From the NCBI RefSeq assembly GCF_038397725.1, contig NZ_CP151634.1, positions 1,922,001-1,986,000 on the forward strand: DNA of 64,000 nucleotides. Direction: 5' to 3'. The position numbers and the translations under genes are program-made. Below the pieces are notes generated by a model, which made no database searches, was not told where the DNA came from, and saw only the letters and a list, made by a program, of their open reading frames with translations. Each line of letters opens with the position of its first letter. The first letter of the stretch is position 1. The DNA comes from Microbacterium sp. LWO13-1.2 (GTDB taxonomy: Bacteria; Actinomycetota; Actinomycetes; Actinomycetales; Microbacteriaceae). Positions 17,324 to 20,333 of this stretch are shown piece by piece.

Positions 17324-17980
17324 TCAGCGGAAGTCGACGAGCCCCGCGTGTGCGGCCGTGACGAGGATCTGCACCCGGTCGCGCACCTGCCACTTCGACA
17401 TGATGCGGCCGAGGTGGGCCTTGACCGTGCCTTCGGACACGATGAGCGTCCGCGCGATCTCTGCGTTCGACATGCCCTGAGCCAGACGTTCGAGCACTTC
17501 GGACTCGCGCTCGGTGAGGGACTCGAGGTCGCGCGCTCCGCGGCCGGTGGGCTCGGTGTCGCGGACGTGCTTGATCAGCATCGACGCGATCCTCGGCGAG
17601 AGCGAGCTGGCGCCCTTGTAGACCTCGCGCACTCCGAGCACGATGTCGTCGGCGCTCGAGTCCTTGAGCAGATACCCGGAGGCGCCGGCGTTCAGCATCG
17701 GAAGAACCGTGTCGCTGCCGTCGAGCGTCGTCACCGCGAGGATGCGGACATCGGGCCAGCGCTCGGCGATCACCGCCGTCGCCTCGATTCCGTTCATCTC
17801 GGGCATCTGGACGTCCATCATGACGACGTCCGGGCGGTCGCGCTCCACGGCGGCGATCGCTTCGACGCCGCTTTCGGCCTCACCGATGACCTCGATCTCC
17901 GGGTCGCGGGATACGAAGTGCGAGAGCGCTGAACGGACGAGGGGATCGTCATCGACGATGAGAACGCGGATAACCGGCAT
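17324..17980 (-). CDS. NarL/FixJ-type response regulator
   Basis: 218-residue regulator with an N-terminal receiver (VLIVDDDPLVR acid pocket, phosphoacceptor Asp56 in MMDVQMPEMNG, Thr in LAVTTLDG, Lys in GYLLKDSS) and a C-terminal LuxR helix-turn-helix (LTERESEVLERLAQGMSNAEIARTL). It is transcribed divergently from a micro-ORF and a histidine kinase that is its probable partner. Upstream TAGGCT lies 6 bases before ATG 17980, so it is likely leaderless. The 230-base divergent region carries a GACCTTTGGC box that recurs downstream of the kinase gene and may be its binding site. Confidence 0.93.
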   Translation of the reverse strand: MPVIRVLIVDDDPLVRSALSHFVSRDPEIEVIGEAESGVEAIAAVERDRPDVVMMDVQMPEMNGIEATAVIAERWPDVRILAVTTLDGSDTVLPMLNAGASGYLLKDSSADDIVLGVREVYKGASSLSPRIASMLIKHVRDTEPTGRGARDLESLTERESEVLERLAQGMSNAEIARTLIVSEGTVKAHLGRIMSKWQVRDRVQILVTAAHAGLVDFR

Positions 17981-17986
17981 GGAGGA

Positions 17987-17992
17987 AGCCTA
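17987..17992 (-). promoter_or_regulatory. -10 hexamer TAGGCT of a leaderless promoter
   Basis: TAGGCT on the minus strand, 6 bases before the ATG of the response regulator; no Shine-Dalgarno in the spacer (TCCTCC). Confidence 0.6.
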
Positions 17993-18026
17993 ACGGCGGC
18001 AATAAGTCCGTCAATTTGTCGATATA

Positions 18027-18059
18027 GACCTTTGGCCAGAAAAGACTGCCGGGTAGTCC
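18027..18059 (+). promoter_or_regulatory. Candidate regulated promoter with GACCTTTGGC box
   Basis: GATATA followed by GACCTTTGGC (box at 18027-18036). TTTGGC (18031-18036), 17 bases, TAGTCC (18054-18059) could be a weak promoter for the micro-ORF and kinase. The same 10-base box is at 19414-19423, again preceded by a TATA stretch. Binding by the adjacent response regulator is inference. Confidence 0.4.
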
Positions 18060-18133
18060 GATGTGGTCGCTGCAGATCACCGAGAAGATGAAGTCAGTTC
18101 TCGACAAAAGACCAATCAGGGAGGTGAAAGACC

Positions 18134-18181
18134 ATGACTTTTTGGCAGCAGCTTTGCTACATTCTGGGCATCATTCGCTAG
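18134..18181 (+). CDS. 15-residue micro-ORF upstream of the histidine kinase
   Basis: ATG at 18134 codes MTFWQQLCYILGIIR and a TAG stop. It has one of the strongest ribosome binding sites of the window, AGGGAGGTGA (18118-18127), with about 9 bases from GGAGG to ATG. The peptide is hydrophobic with one Cys and a C-terminal Arg. The kinase gene starts 29 bases after the stop with its own weaker GGAG, so both are probably on one transcript. Possible roles are a signal peptide sensed by the kinase, a small membrane modulator of it, or a translated leader. No family recognised; too short for standard gene finders. Confidence 0.5.
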   Translation: MTFWQQLCYILGIIR

Positions 18182-18210
18182 ATTACCTGGCGAGTAGGAG
18201 ATAGTGAACC

Positions 18211-19353
18211 ATGGCGTTCGCCCCCTCAACCCGAGAAGACTCGGGCATTCTCCGGCTGAGCCGCGGAGAGGCGTTGAGCGTTCTCGAGCGCATCTTCGTC
18301 CTGGTGGTCATCATCGTCGTCGTCGCTGTCGATCTGCTCGGCGTGTTCTTCTCGCCCGGCGTGAACGTCATCGCGTCCGTGCTCAGCATCGCGACCACGT
18401 CCGTGCTGATCCTCTATCTTTGGTCGCCCCTCCTCGCTACCTGCGCGTTGGGGCTCATGCTGGCTCTCTCATTCGTCACGGGCAACGAGATCCAGACACT
18501 CTTGGCTGTCGCCGTCGCGGCAGCGCTGGTCATGCGGCTCGGGTGGAATTCGCTGATCCTCTCCTACATCGGTGGTTTCCTCGTCGCAGCGGCGATCATC
18601 GCCTACGGCGATCTGAGCGGCCCGGTGAACGTCGGGATCTATCTCATCGTCGCCACCGTGGCCGGAGCGATCGGCTTCGCCCTTCGGATGGCCTTCGCCC
18701 GCGGCCGCCGCCTCGAGCAGCAGCTCGTGGAACAGGAACTGCAGGAGCGCGAGGCCGTGCTCGCTGAGCGCCGATGGATCGCCGGCGAACTGCACGACAG
18801 CATCGCGCACCACCTCACCGTCGTTGCCATGCACGTCCAGATGCTGGACGACGCGCAGGTGACTCGGCAATCCCAAGAGGCGATCCGCGTCGCCGCGAGG
18901 AAGGCGATGGCCGATCTGCGATTCGTGATCGAGCTCGCCGATGACGGACCACGCGCGTCCGCACTGCAGACCGGGGACCTCGCTGCCGCCGTCGACGAAG
19001 CCAGAAGCGAGTTCGAATCCGCGGGACACCCGGTGGTCAGCCAGGGAGACCCCCGAGACGAGCGGATTCCTCGCGCCGCAGAGATCGTGTTCGCACGGAT
19101 CATGCGCGAATCGGCCACGAACATCCTGAAGCATGCGGGACCCGGTGAAGTCGGGATCGGGTTGCAGGTCGACGATGAGTCGGCGACGCTGACCATCAGC
19201 AGCCCGCTTCCGGCAACGCCCCGGCGAGACCTTCCCTCCAGCGGCACCGGCCTGAACCGGATGGCGGAGCGCGTGCTCGGGGCGAGTGGCACGTTCAGCG
19301 CGGGCGCGGTCGACGGTCAGTGGCGCGTGTCTGCCCGGCTGCTGATCGCCTGA
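18211..19353 (+). CDS. Sensor histidine kinase (HisKA_3/NarL-partner type)
   Basis: 380-residue membrane kinase. Residues 25-165 hold about five or six hydrophobic segments with almost no extracellular loop, so the sensed signal is probably within or near the membrane. A coiled-coil linker (ARGRRLEQQLVEQELQERE) leads to the HisKA_3 box WIAGELHDSIAHHL with phosphoacceptor His195. The ATPase domain has the N box (RESATNILKHA) and the G box (SSGTGLNRMAERV). The partner is the divergent NarL-type regulator. ATG 18211 has a GGAG 12 bases upstream. The preceding 15-residue micro-ORF makes this two-component locus unusual. Confidence 0.9.
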   Translation: MAFAPSTREDSGILRLSRGEALSVLERIFVLVVIIVVVAVDLLGVFFSPGVNVIASVLSIATTSVLILYLWSPLLATCALGLMLALSFVTGNEIQTLLAVAVAAALVMRLGWNSLILSYIGGFLVAAAIIAYGDLSGPVNVGIYLIVATVAGAIGFALRMAFARGRRLEQQLVEQELQEREAVLAERRWIAGELHDSIAHHLTVVAMHVQMLDDAQVTRQSQEAIRVAARKAMADLRFVIELADDGPRASALQTGDLAAAVDEARSEFESAGHPVVSQGDPRDERIPRAAEIVFARIMRESATNILKHAGPGEVGIGLQVDDESATLTISSPLPATPRRDLPSSGTGLNRMAERVLGASGTFSAGAVDGQWRVSARLLIA

Positions 19354-19400
19354 GCGGCCGGTCGACGGCGTCTCCGCGCCGATGGATCCTGGACGAACGT

Positions 19401-19448
19401 CTATATGACTTTCGACCTTTGGCGCTTCTGGGCGACGTCTCCTATTAC
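19401..19448 (+). promoter_or_regulatory. Second GACCTTTGGC box downstream of the kinase gene
   Basis: CTATATGACTTTC followed by GACCTTTGGC (19414-19423), then TATTAC at 19443-19448. The box and the TATA stretch repeat what is seen in front of the kinase operon. No clear gene follows on this strand before the convergent GntR gene, so a short RNA, a micro-ORF, or a decayed promoter are all possible. Confidence 0.35.
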
Positions 19449-19493
19449 TACCGTAGGGAATGCCCCAATTGAGGCGCCCCCAGCGCCTTGGCG

Positions 19494-19532
19494 AGAAGCG
19501 TCCCCAGCGCTTCTGCGATCGCGAGCGCGATC
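19494..19532. terminator. Two adjacent hairpins between convergent genes
   Basis: AGAAGCG-TCCCCAG-CGCTTCT (19494-19514), followed at once by the palindrome GATCGCG-AG-CGCGATC (19517-19532). They lie between the kinase and the convergent GntR regulator and could stop transcripts from both sides. Confidence 0.45.
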
Positions 19533-19589
19533 TTCGGCTTCTGACTTCCTATCGCGCTCGCGGTCGCACTCTCTGGCCGGTTCCCGGTC

Positions 19590-20333
19590 TCAGCCGCCCA
19601 CTGCCCGCATGTAGTGGCCGTCGGTGGAGATTCCGGATGCTGCGACCGTGAACCGCACGAAGTCGCTGAGGTAGCGGTCCTCCGACGCCTCGAAGATGAG
19701 GCCGTCCGCGTCGCGGGAGATGCGGCTGAGCCGCAGGATCGGGGTACCCAGAGGCACACGCAGCAGTGCGGCATCCTGTTCGTCCGCGGCCACGGCGTCG
19801 ATCTCGTGCTGCAGTCCGACGATCGGATGCCCCTGCGCGGTGAGGTACTCGGTGATGGACACCGTGTCGAGATCCACGTCGAACAGTCGACGCCCCACGG
19901 CCTCGGTGTAGAAGAGTCGCTCGAGCATCGTCGGGCGACCGTCGAGCAGCCGCAGCCGCGTGACGCTCACGATGGTGTCGTCAGGGGAGACCCCCAGAGC
20001 CGCGGCGCGTGTACCGGCCCGGCGAAGGCTCAGTTCCTGGGTCTGGGCGCCCGGTTTCACACCCAGCTGTCGCGCCCAGCGCGTGAACGGCACCGAGACA
20101 TCCACTGCTTGATTAGCCTTCCGGGCGACCACGCGCGCGGGCCGTCCGCGGCTCGTCTCGATGAGTCCGTCCGTCCGCAACGCGGCCAACGCGTTCCGGA
20201 TCGGGCCGCGAGACGTGCGCCAGCGTTCTGCAAGCTCCGCCTCGGTCGGAACGTCGTCGCCGGGGCGCAGAGTGCCCGCCGCGATCTGCGCTCGGAGGTC
20301 GTCGGCGATCTGGGTGTACACAGCTTCTGCCAC
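19590..20333 (-). CDS. GntR family regulator (UTRA domain)
   Basis: 247-residue regulator with an N-terminal winged helix (IADDLRAQIAAGTLRPGDDVPTEAELAERW) and a C-terminal UTRA ligand-binding domain (about 90-235; SVTRLRLLDGRPTMLERLFY is typical). It is divergent from the phosphonate cluster, and HutC/PhnF-type GntR-UTRA proteins commonly control such clusters. GTG at 20333 follows a TAGTAT hexamer by 6 bases, suggesting leaderless expression. A candidate operator, an 11-bp inverted repeat, lies in the shared region. The family repressor typically responds to the imported substrate; here that is inference. Confidence 0.9.
   Translation of the reverse strand: MAEAVYTQIADDLRAQIAAGTLRPGDDVPTEAELAERWRTSRGPIRNALAALRTDGLIETSRGRPARVVARKANQAVDVSVPFTRWARQLGVKPGAQTQELSLRRAGTRAAALGVSPDDTIVSVTRLRLLDGRPTMLERLFYTEAVGRRLFDVDLDTVSITEYLTAQGHPIVGLQHEIDAVAADEQDAALLRVPLGTPILRLSRISRDADGLIFEASEDRYLSDFVRFTVAASGISTDGHYMRAVGG

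Follow-up and report, generated by a model that had tools for sequence, protein, structure and literature searches.

The stretch of DNA analysed here, 64,000 nucleotides from Microbacterium sp. LWO13-1.2 (the window), includes a 15-codon reading frame (the micro-ORF) directly before the gene for a membrane histidine kinase, a divergent response regulator gene and a conserved RNA behind the kinase gene. The unit made up of peptide, kinase, regulator and RNA spans about 2.3 kb in total, and its features are as follows.

17324-17980, minus strand: NarL/LuxR-type response regulator of 218 aa (Response_reg and GerE domains in Pfam), divergent from the micro-ORF
18025-18062, plus strand: proposed pair of regulator sites before the micro-ORF, with site A, TAGACCTTTGGCCA, at 18025-18038 and, about 22 bp beyond it, a second, weaker one
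18084-18089, plus strand: GAAGAT, the predicted -10 element for the micro-ORF and kinase, with site A 59 bp away
18118-18127, plus strand: ribosome-binding site of the micro-ORF, AGGGAGGTGA, of which GGTGA was part of the search pattern that recovered 65 loci
18134-18181, plus strand: micro-ORF MTFWQQLCYILGIIR, 48 bases and 15 aa, the proposed signal peptide of the kinase
18211-19353, plus strand: HisKA_3 membrane histidine kinase of 380 aa (Pfam and structural model), with its ATG at 18211
19390-19425, plus strand: proposed pair of sites of the sRNA promoter, TGGACGAACGTCTA at 19390-19403 and TCGACCTTTGGCGC at 19412-19425
19449-19454, plus strand: TACCGT, the predicted -10 element for the sRNA, likewise 59 bp away from site A of that promoter
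19460-19568, plus strand: conserved small RNA (z = -5.17; covariance model R1; no Rfam family at the cut-off)

An earlier note on this DNA had described the 48-base ORF and its ribosome site 29 bases before the kinase, the divergent orientation of the regulator gene and a 10-base box, GACCTTTGGC, at 18027 and 19414. All of this was confirmed: the spacer between the micro-ORF and the kinase ATG is 18182-18210, and both copies of the box are exact, with no other exact copy in the window. On the minus strand, TTAGGCTTCC at 17984-17993 lies directly before the regulator ATG and is whole or nearly whole in ten close loci compared; if it serves as a -10 element, the regulator mRNA would be leaderless.

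The kinase is of the HisKA_3 type in Pfam. An AlphaFold2 model (pLDDT 80.7, pTM 0.50) places membrane helices at residues 24-47, 53-70, 73-90, 93-110 and 113-133 and a sixth from 138, followed by the dimerisation and ATPase parts, and includes no extracellular domain; the loops between the six helices are very short, in agreement with the earlier description of a kinase with almost no extracellular loop. H195 lies within an invariant L-H-D. The nearest solved structures are the cytoplasmic parts of DesK, which do not cover the membrane domain, and the NCBIfam model for LiaS scores 23.5 bits, far below its cut-off of 450 bits.

A search with the kinase of 366 genomes of the genus found 92 with a clear ortholog, the window's own included, and 274 without, and the unit is thus patchily distributed. 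The 92 loci compared are the window, L061-L124 and L150-L176. In the other 91 loci the kinase is 54-89 % identical to that in the window (split or partial in genomes G034 and G276) and the regulator gene is divergent, with 61-90 % identity, the lowest values coming from partial or distant copies. A strict pattern combining the ribosome site with an MxFW start (GGTGA, a gap, then ATG[AT][CG]NTT[CT]TGG[CG]A[AG]) matched 65 of the 366 genomes, once in each, and most of these 65 loci show a GAGGTGA-like site; the remaining 27 of the 92 loci have micro-ORF variants that fall outside the strict pattern. A reversed-pattern control matched none, and a chance origin of the micro-ORF was ranked low on this comparison. 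The frame is open in 91 of the 92 loci, where it encodes 49 distinct peptides and starts approximately 76-92 bases before the kinase.

Substitutions in the micro-ORF were counted by parsimony on the kinase tree for the 84 loci with 15-codon ORFs. Changes at codon positions 1, 2 and 3 numbered 88, 41 and 142, and 95 synonymous changes stood against 109 non-synonymous ones, corresponding to an omega-like ratio of 0.37. Residues W4 and G12 are invariant across these 84; the L175 peptide, MTFWDAIYNFFRRA, which has 14 residues and does not include G12, is not among them. By these comparisons the micro-ORF is a real coding gene under purifying selection. The earlier note had proposed looking for the frame and its ribosome site upstream of orthologous kinases and for a synonymous bias, and both the conservation and the bias were found. 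The sole exception is G034 (locus L115), in which the micro-ORF is frameshifted, the kinase match is split over frames and the best alignment to the regulator is limited to residues 102-218. It is a decayed copy, yet its RNA is still recognised by R1 (E = 3.6e-10).

By inspection, hydrophobic residues at positions 3, 4, 7, 10, 11 and 13 fit an amphipathic helix. The window's peptide includes one Cys, and 85 of the 91 peptides of the close group include none. No signal sequence was found in the Microbacterium peptides, and no gene fit to serve the peptide as transporter or processing enzyme was found among the six window proteins typed with Pfam, one of which is a phosphonate-type binding protein from a separate operon.

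Site A, which is partly palindromic (AGACCTTTGGCCA..AAGACT), matches at least 12 of 14 consensus positions before the micro-ORF in 85/92 loci, and a GAGAAGAT-type -10 element lies at the same offset in 79/92. Considered alone in one window, the 10-base box is not significant, since three matches were found with one mismatch allowed and 2.6 are expected. It becomes so when loci are compared: a position weight matrix trained on 21 distinct sites upstream of the micro-ORF was used to scan 423 kb, and it found 114 sites within 120 bp before the RNA, with all 92 loci represented, compared with 119 across the remainder of the scanned DNA. The spacing between the start of site A and the predicted -10 element is 59-61 bp at both promoters. 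A scan with the sigma-70 promoter consensus found no sites here and recovered neither predicted -10 element; the corresponding terminator scan gave a single terminator-like hit, which falls within the kinase coding sequence.

Two regulator-type sites follow the stop codon of the kinase gene, and the one at the 19414 box would be the proximal site of the predicted sRNA promoter. The suggestion in the earlier note that the system is autoregulated through the box gains support from the regulator-type sites conserved before the micro-ORF, to which the regulator would bind. That note had not mentioned the RNA and, because the second box fronts a conserved RNA, what had been seen as a two-component system with a peptide becomes a candidate circuit of peptide, two-component system and sRNA.

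The RNA includes two hairpins with CCCCA loops (19471-19489 and 19494-19514) and a 17-bp terminator-like stem (19515-19531/19551-19567). Its predicted folding energy is -63.5 kcal/mol, a value that none of 200 shuffles reached. Covariance model R1 found it in 90 of the 366 genomes, all of them among the 92 with the kinase; divergent copies were seen by eye in the two that were missed, G187 and G276, and a second match in each of nine genomes is the opposite strand of the same hairpin. Two or more CCCCAG motifs within 60 nt, between +1140 and +1700 from the kinase start, are found in 91/92 loci, and the one locus without them (L176) has CCCCAAG hairpins instead. Elsewhere in the 92 loci there are three such clusters (L098, L115 and L119).

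In an alignment of 41 sequences (A2), 24 cells were changed on both sides of a predicted pair, compared to 7.2 in shuffles, and none of 500 shuffles was as high. The number of pairs with such changes, five, is not unusual (reached by 81/500 shuffles), and all five are in the long stem. When the structure was slid along the alignment as a control, the cells paired dropped to 11-59 %. The stem of the C-rich loop is nearly invariant in A2, and an outer pair proposed for it failed in 35 of the 41 rows. Across single folds this stem varies with pairing kept (AGCGT/GCGCT, AGGCGT/GCGCCT, GAGGCGC/GCGCCTT and CGTGGA/TCCACG); folds of individual 135-nt segments gave a hairpin with CCC in the loop in 81/92 loci, a few of them outside the RNA proper, and none in 11. 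Taken together, the comparisons indicate that a structured RNA is conserved alongside the kinase. A search of window positions 17900-19800 against Rfam gave sub-threshold matches and no family at the gathering cut-off. The 6C RNA (RF01066), an actinobacterial RNA with C-rich hairpin loops, is similar in both respects, but was absent from the Rfam matches here even at a lax E-value.

Since the long terminator-like stem sits between the convergent kinase and GntR genes in the window, the RNA might be regarded as a mere terminator. A T run ends the stem in some relatives (L061, L151), and the window RNA has no clear U-tract. However, regulator-type sites precede the hairpins in every one of the 92 loci and the CCCCAG clusters are kept in all but one; furthermore, 18 of 65 loci have no GntR ortholog nearby, yet the cluster is present in 65/65. 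We therefore consider it extremely unlikely that the RNA is a terminator and nothing else.

The relationship of the peptide to the kinase was examined via pairwise distances, using 75 non-redundant loci out of the 89 with an intact peptide and kinase. Peptide distance correlated with sensor-domain distance (r 0.75; partial r 0.58 given the catalytic domain; 0/2000 permutations), and its correlation with catalytic-domain distance given the sensor domain was 0.08. In 74 loci, with catalytic-domain, regulator and four-fold-site distances all taken into account, the partial r for peptide and sensor domain was 0.49 (0/1000 permutations); the corresponding values were -0.02 for peptide and catalytic domain given sensor and regulator, and 0.12 for peptide and regulator given sensor and catalytic domain. 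Peptide distance is also tracked by synonymous distance in the sensor region (0.48), and part of the correlation may hence be explained by exchange of a linked peptide-sensor block. In either case, the peptide and the sensor domain, which is the membrane part of the kinase, behave as one module.

A peptide that is short, amphipathic and encoded behind proposed regulator sites could also be the output of the system, akin to PSMs or bacteriocins, rather than the ligand of the kinase. There are precedents: AgrA also drives PSM peptides, according to one report (PMC2837412), and a study on Clostridioides difficile (PMC10602386) describes a single two-component system, RgaS-RgaR, that drives both the SpoZ sRNA and the agrB1D1 peptide locus and is not activated by the peptide. 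A co-regulated peptide, on this example, need not be a ligand, and one system driving both a peptide locus and an sRNA is a likeness to the arrangement proposed here; RgaS and RgaR are an orphan kinase and an orphan regulator (PMC10602386), whereas here all parts form one linked unit. The micro-ORF always adjoins the kinase, upstream on the same strand, and its product tracks the sensor domain more than the catalytic domain or the regulator, and we regard an output role as improbable.

More distant loci were scanned for an ORF upstream of the kinase that ends in a hydrophobic residue followed by C-x4-8-C-x0-5-stop. Such a two-Cys micro-ORF precedes 38 of 47 distant kinases with a divergent regulator, a set that was not dereplicated and includes some near-identical pairs and some loci sharing one peptide, when 1.2 are expected from dinucleotide shuffles; the reverse strand gave none. 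Examples are IWDWLCKTFGVCN, IWTALCRLLGLCS and LWTALCQLFGICN. Two of the 38 matches look like chance (L245 and the one displayed for L239, which also has a proper peptide). Among the nine loci without a match, the two-Cys peptide of L209 was cut off by the scan. Related-looking peptides without the Cys pair are found at L200, L201, L204, L208 and L233, and no peptide was seen at L193, L207 and L249, nor at the divergent-regulator locus L321 of the order-wide sample described below. At L188 and L206 neither a matching regulator nor a peptide was found. L209 is a paralogous kinase in the same genome as the window (G000:C1:727380-728456), 32-34 % identical to the window's kinase, with its own micro-ORF, MIFIVPAKNQMWPVICQWLRICY, and a divergent regulator.

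The two-Cys peptide precedes none of four distant kinases with co-directional regulators. An order-wide sample, in which 38 of 297 genomes were matched and 30 loci were examined, gave one match among 21 co-directional kinases (L337), which overlaps the kinase start and is probably due to chance. The same sample included nine divergent-regulator loci, six of them with a two-Cys peptide (L323 included) and three without (L327, L328 and L321). Some of its loci repeat species counted earlier (L320 has the peptide of L239, and L327 and L201 are the same gene). In a sample of 249 genomes of the family, ten match the window kinase at E <= 1e-20, the only close ones being the window's own and G034; loci L310-L313 from this sample have two-Cys peptides. 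In Glutamicibacter, Paeniglutamicibacter and Arthrobacter, and at further loci in the order, the peptide is the C-terminus of a precursor with a Sec-like signal, as judged by eye.

These relatives bear on two further explanations. If the micro-ORF were a leader, its translation rather than its product would open the ribosome site of the kinase by coupling or attenuation, and the short distance of 29 nt to the kinase and the spacer with the kinase ribosome site, which shows good conservation across a large part of the close group, are consistent with this. However, residues are under selection along the peptide, W4 and G12 being invariant among the 84 ORFs of 15 codons, and the peptide tracks the sensor domain of the kinase. 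In the distant loci the micro-ORF starts anywhere between about 66 and about 178 bases before the kinase, and the Micrococcaceae versions bear an N-terminal Sec-like signal. Together these points make a leader very unlikely. As with the terminator-only RNA, a leader-only micro-ORF was ranked low. Alternatively, the peptide may be a non-secreted membrane micro-protein that tunes the kinase of its own cell, with no signal passing between cells. The lack of a signal sequence in the Microbacterium peptides, their length of 13-15 residues with a hydrophobic face (by inspection) and the kinase model without an extracellular domain would suit such a role, but relatives sharing a similar C-terminal motif have Sec-like precursors, and we consider this reading possible, though rather unlikely. 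The earlier note had offered a peptide signal or a small membrane regulator of the kinase as the function of the micro-ORF, and this pair of options is supported by frame conservation, synonymous bias, the tracking of the sensor domain and the relatives with Sec-like precursors.

Another structured RNA lies behind four Paeniglutamicibacter/Arthrobacter kinases, with three CCCC(C)A loops in each locus. The L243 region has a z of -7.41, and 19 of 91 predicted pairs are changed on both sides across the four, which is a comparison of only four sequences. The Glutamicibacter loci L236 and L240 have one CCCCC loop each. Rfam gave sub-threshold matches only for the L243 region and no match for that of L236. 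These Micrococcaceae RNAs would be related to the Microbacterium RNA by place and loop motif only. The downstream RNA regions of L236, L239, L240, L243, L244, L246 and L247, which come from two Micrococcaceae groups and are otherwise different, have GTTTTGCGAGTGGC in common. A nitroreductase-family gene lies behind the RNA region in Glutamicibacter (L236:6056-6673) and in Paeniglutamicibacter (L243:6179-6841). In a Leucobacter MAG (L227), regulator-type boxes and C-rich stretches were identified by eye together with the peptide MTFWQQLARLLGLYR.

No CCCCAG cluster was found behind the kinase in 34 distant loci, and one unrelated cluster lies on the opposite strand in L185. L204 and L208, whose kinases are approximately 33 % identical to that of the window, have other CCCC-loop hairpins after GACGAAAGT boxes (by eye). 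At L177, L178 and L180, secreted-looking proteins (MNKKKLAAWVAKAALV... and similar) replace the RNA behind the kinase and are a possible output of the Cys-type systems, and at L199 and L203 the kinase is followed by GAAAGTC-type boxes and then by another kind of small protein (MTVTMHSRDAVLSRRVGDAI... in L203). With protein genes in place of the RNA at Cys-type loci such as L178, L199 and L203, the output would vary.

The reading we prefer, with a probability of roughly two in three, is that four parts of the locus form a single regulatory unit, in which the peptide would act on the kinase, the kinase on the regulator, and the regulator on both promoters, including that of the sRNA. The coding micro-ORF, the structure of the unit, the shared promoter geometry and the conserved RNA are supported by comparison. 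Under this proposal, the micro-ORF would yield a short amphipathic peptide that acts as ligand on the six-helix domain of the adjacent HisKA_3 kinase, from the membrane or, in the relatives, probably from outside the cell after export. The kinase would phosphorylate the divergent NarL-type regulator, and this would bind paired sites with a GAC..G.C core at the promoter of the micro-ORF/kinase operon, providing feedback, and likewise at the sRNA promoter directly behind the kinase; we infer activation rather than repression. The RNA would present unpaired CCCCAG in its hairpin loops, close to its 5' end or at both places, and may act by pairing with the G-rich ribosome-binding sites of mRNAs.

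Several known systems share parts of this arrangement. The kinases of DesK/DesR and LiaS/LiaR, a type that senses the state of the membrane or envelope, also have a HisKA_3/HATPase core on a polytopic membrane domain and no extracellular domain, but the unit described here also comprises an sRNA and a co-varying peptide gene. In ComQXPA of Bacillus, a peptide gene lies directly before a polytopic HisKA_3-type kinase that works with a NarL-type regulator, and the window locus has the same types in the same order. It differs in that the regulator gene is divergent and an sRNA lies behind the kinase, and no ComQ isoprenyl transferase gene was found among the six window proteins typed.

The main known case of peptide quorum sensing coupled to a riboregulator of its own is agr, in Firmicutes. 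The agr kinase and regulator are of the AgrC and LytTR types, whereas those described here are a HisKA_3 kinase and a Response_reg/GerE regulator, and none of the six window proteins typed with Pfam is AgrB-like. The agr thiolactone peptide is cut from AgrD; here the peptide is 15 aa long with one Cys in the window, and two C-terminal Cys are present at 38/47 distant loci. The RNA is about 110 nt long and matches no Rfam family at the cut-off. Hence, the system may be agr-like in its working but is not a member of agr, given the kinase and regulator types and the lack of AgrB among the proteins typed. The likeness to agr/RNAIII of Staphylococcus aureus, as portrayed in PMC2837412, lies in a peptide gene, a membrane kinase, a regulator and an adjacent RNA with C-rich loops. 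According to the same source, the agr regulator targets both its own operon and the regulatory RNA encoded next to it, whose hairpin loops are C-rich (UCCC), the C-rich loops of RNAIII pair with G-rich ribosome sites, and UCCC in unpaired regions marks further S. aureus RNAs (PMC2837412).

We found no published description of such a system in the literature searched (mostly by narrow queries and with few subscription journals). Annotation easily passes over genes as short as 13-15 codons, and the class could thus have been overlooked. The whole unit is about 2.3 kb, which makes the ligand, its specificity and the RNA targets directly testable. More broadly, and with the odds evenly balanced, the loci may represent an ancient peptide-signalling family of the Micrococcales, consisting of a polytopic HisKA_3 kinase, a NarL-type regulator in divergent orientation and a WxxLCxxLGxC-like micro-gene whose product bears a Sec signal in some cases and none in others, with a C-rich-loop RNA behind the kinase in at least two branches (Microbacterium with the Leucobacter MAG, and the Paeniglutamicibacter/Glutamicibacter group). 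If this is so, the Actinobacteria hold a convergent counterpart of agr-RNAIII, in which an agr-like circuit logic seems to have been rebuilt from unrelated families of kinase, regulator, peptide and RNA.
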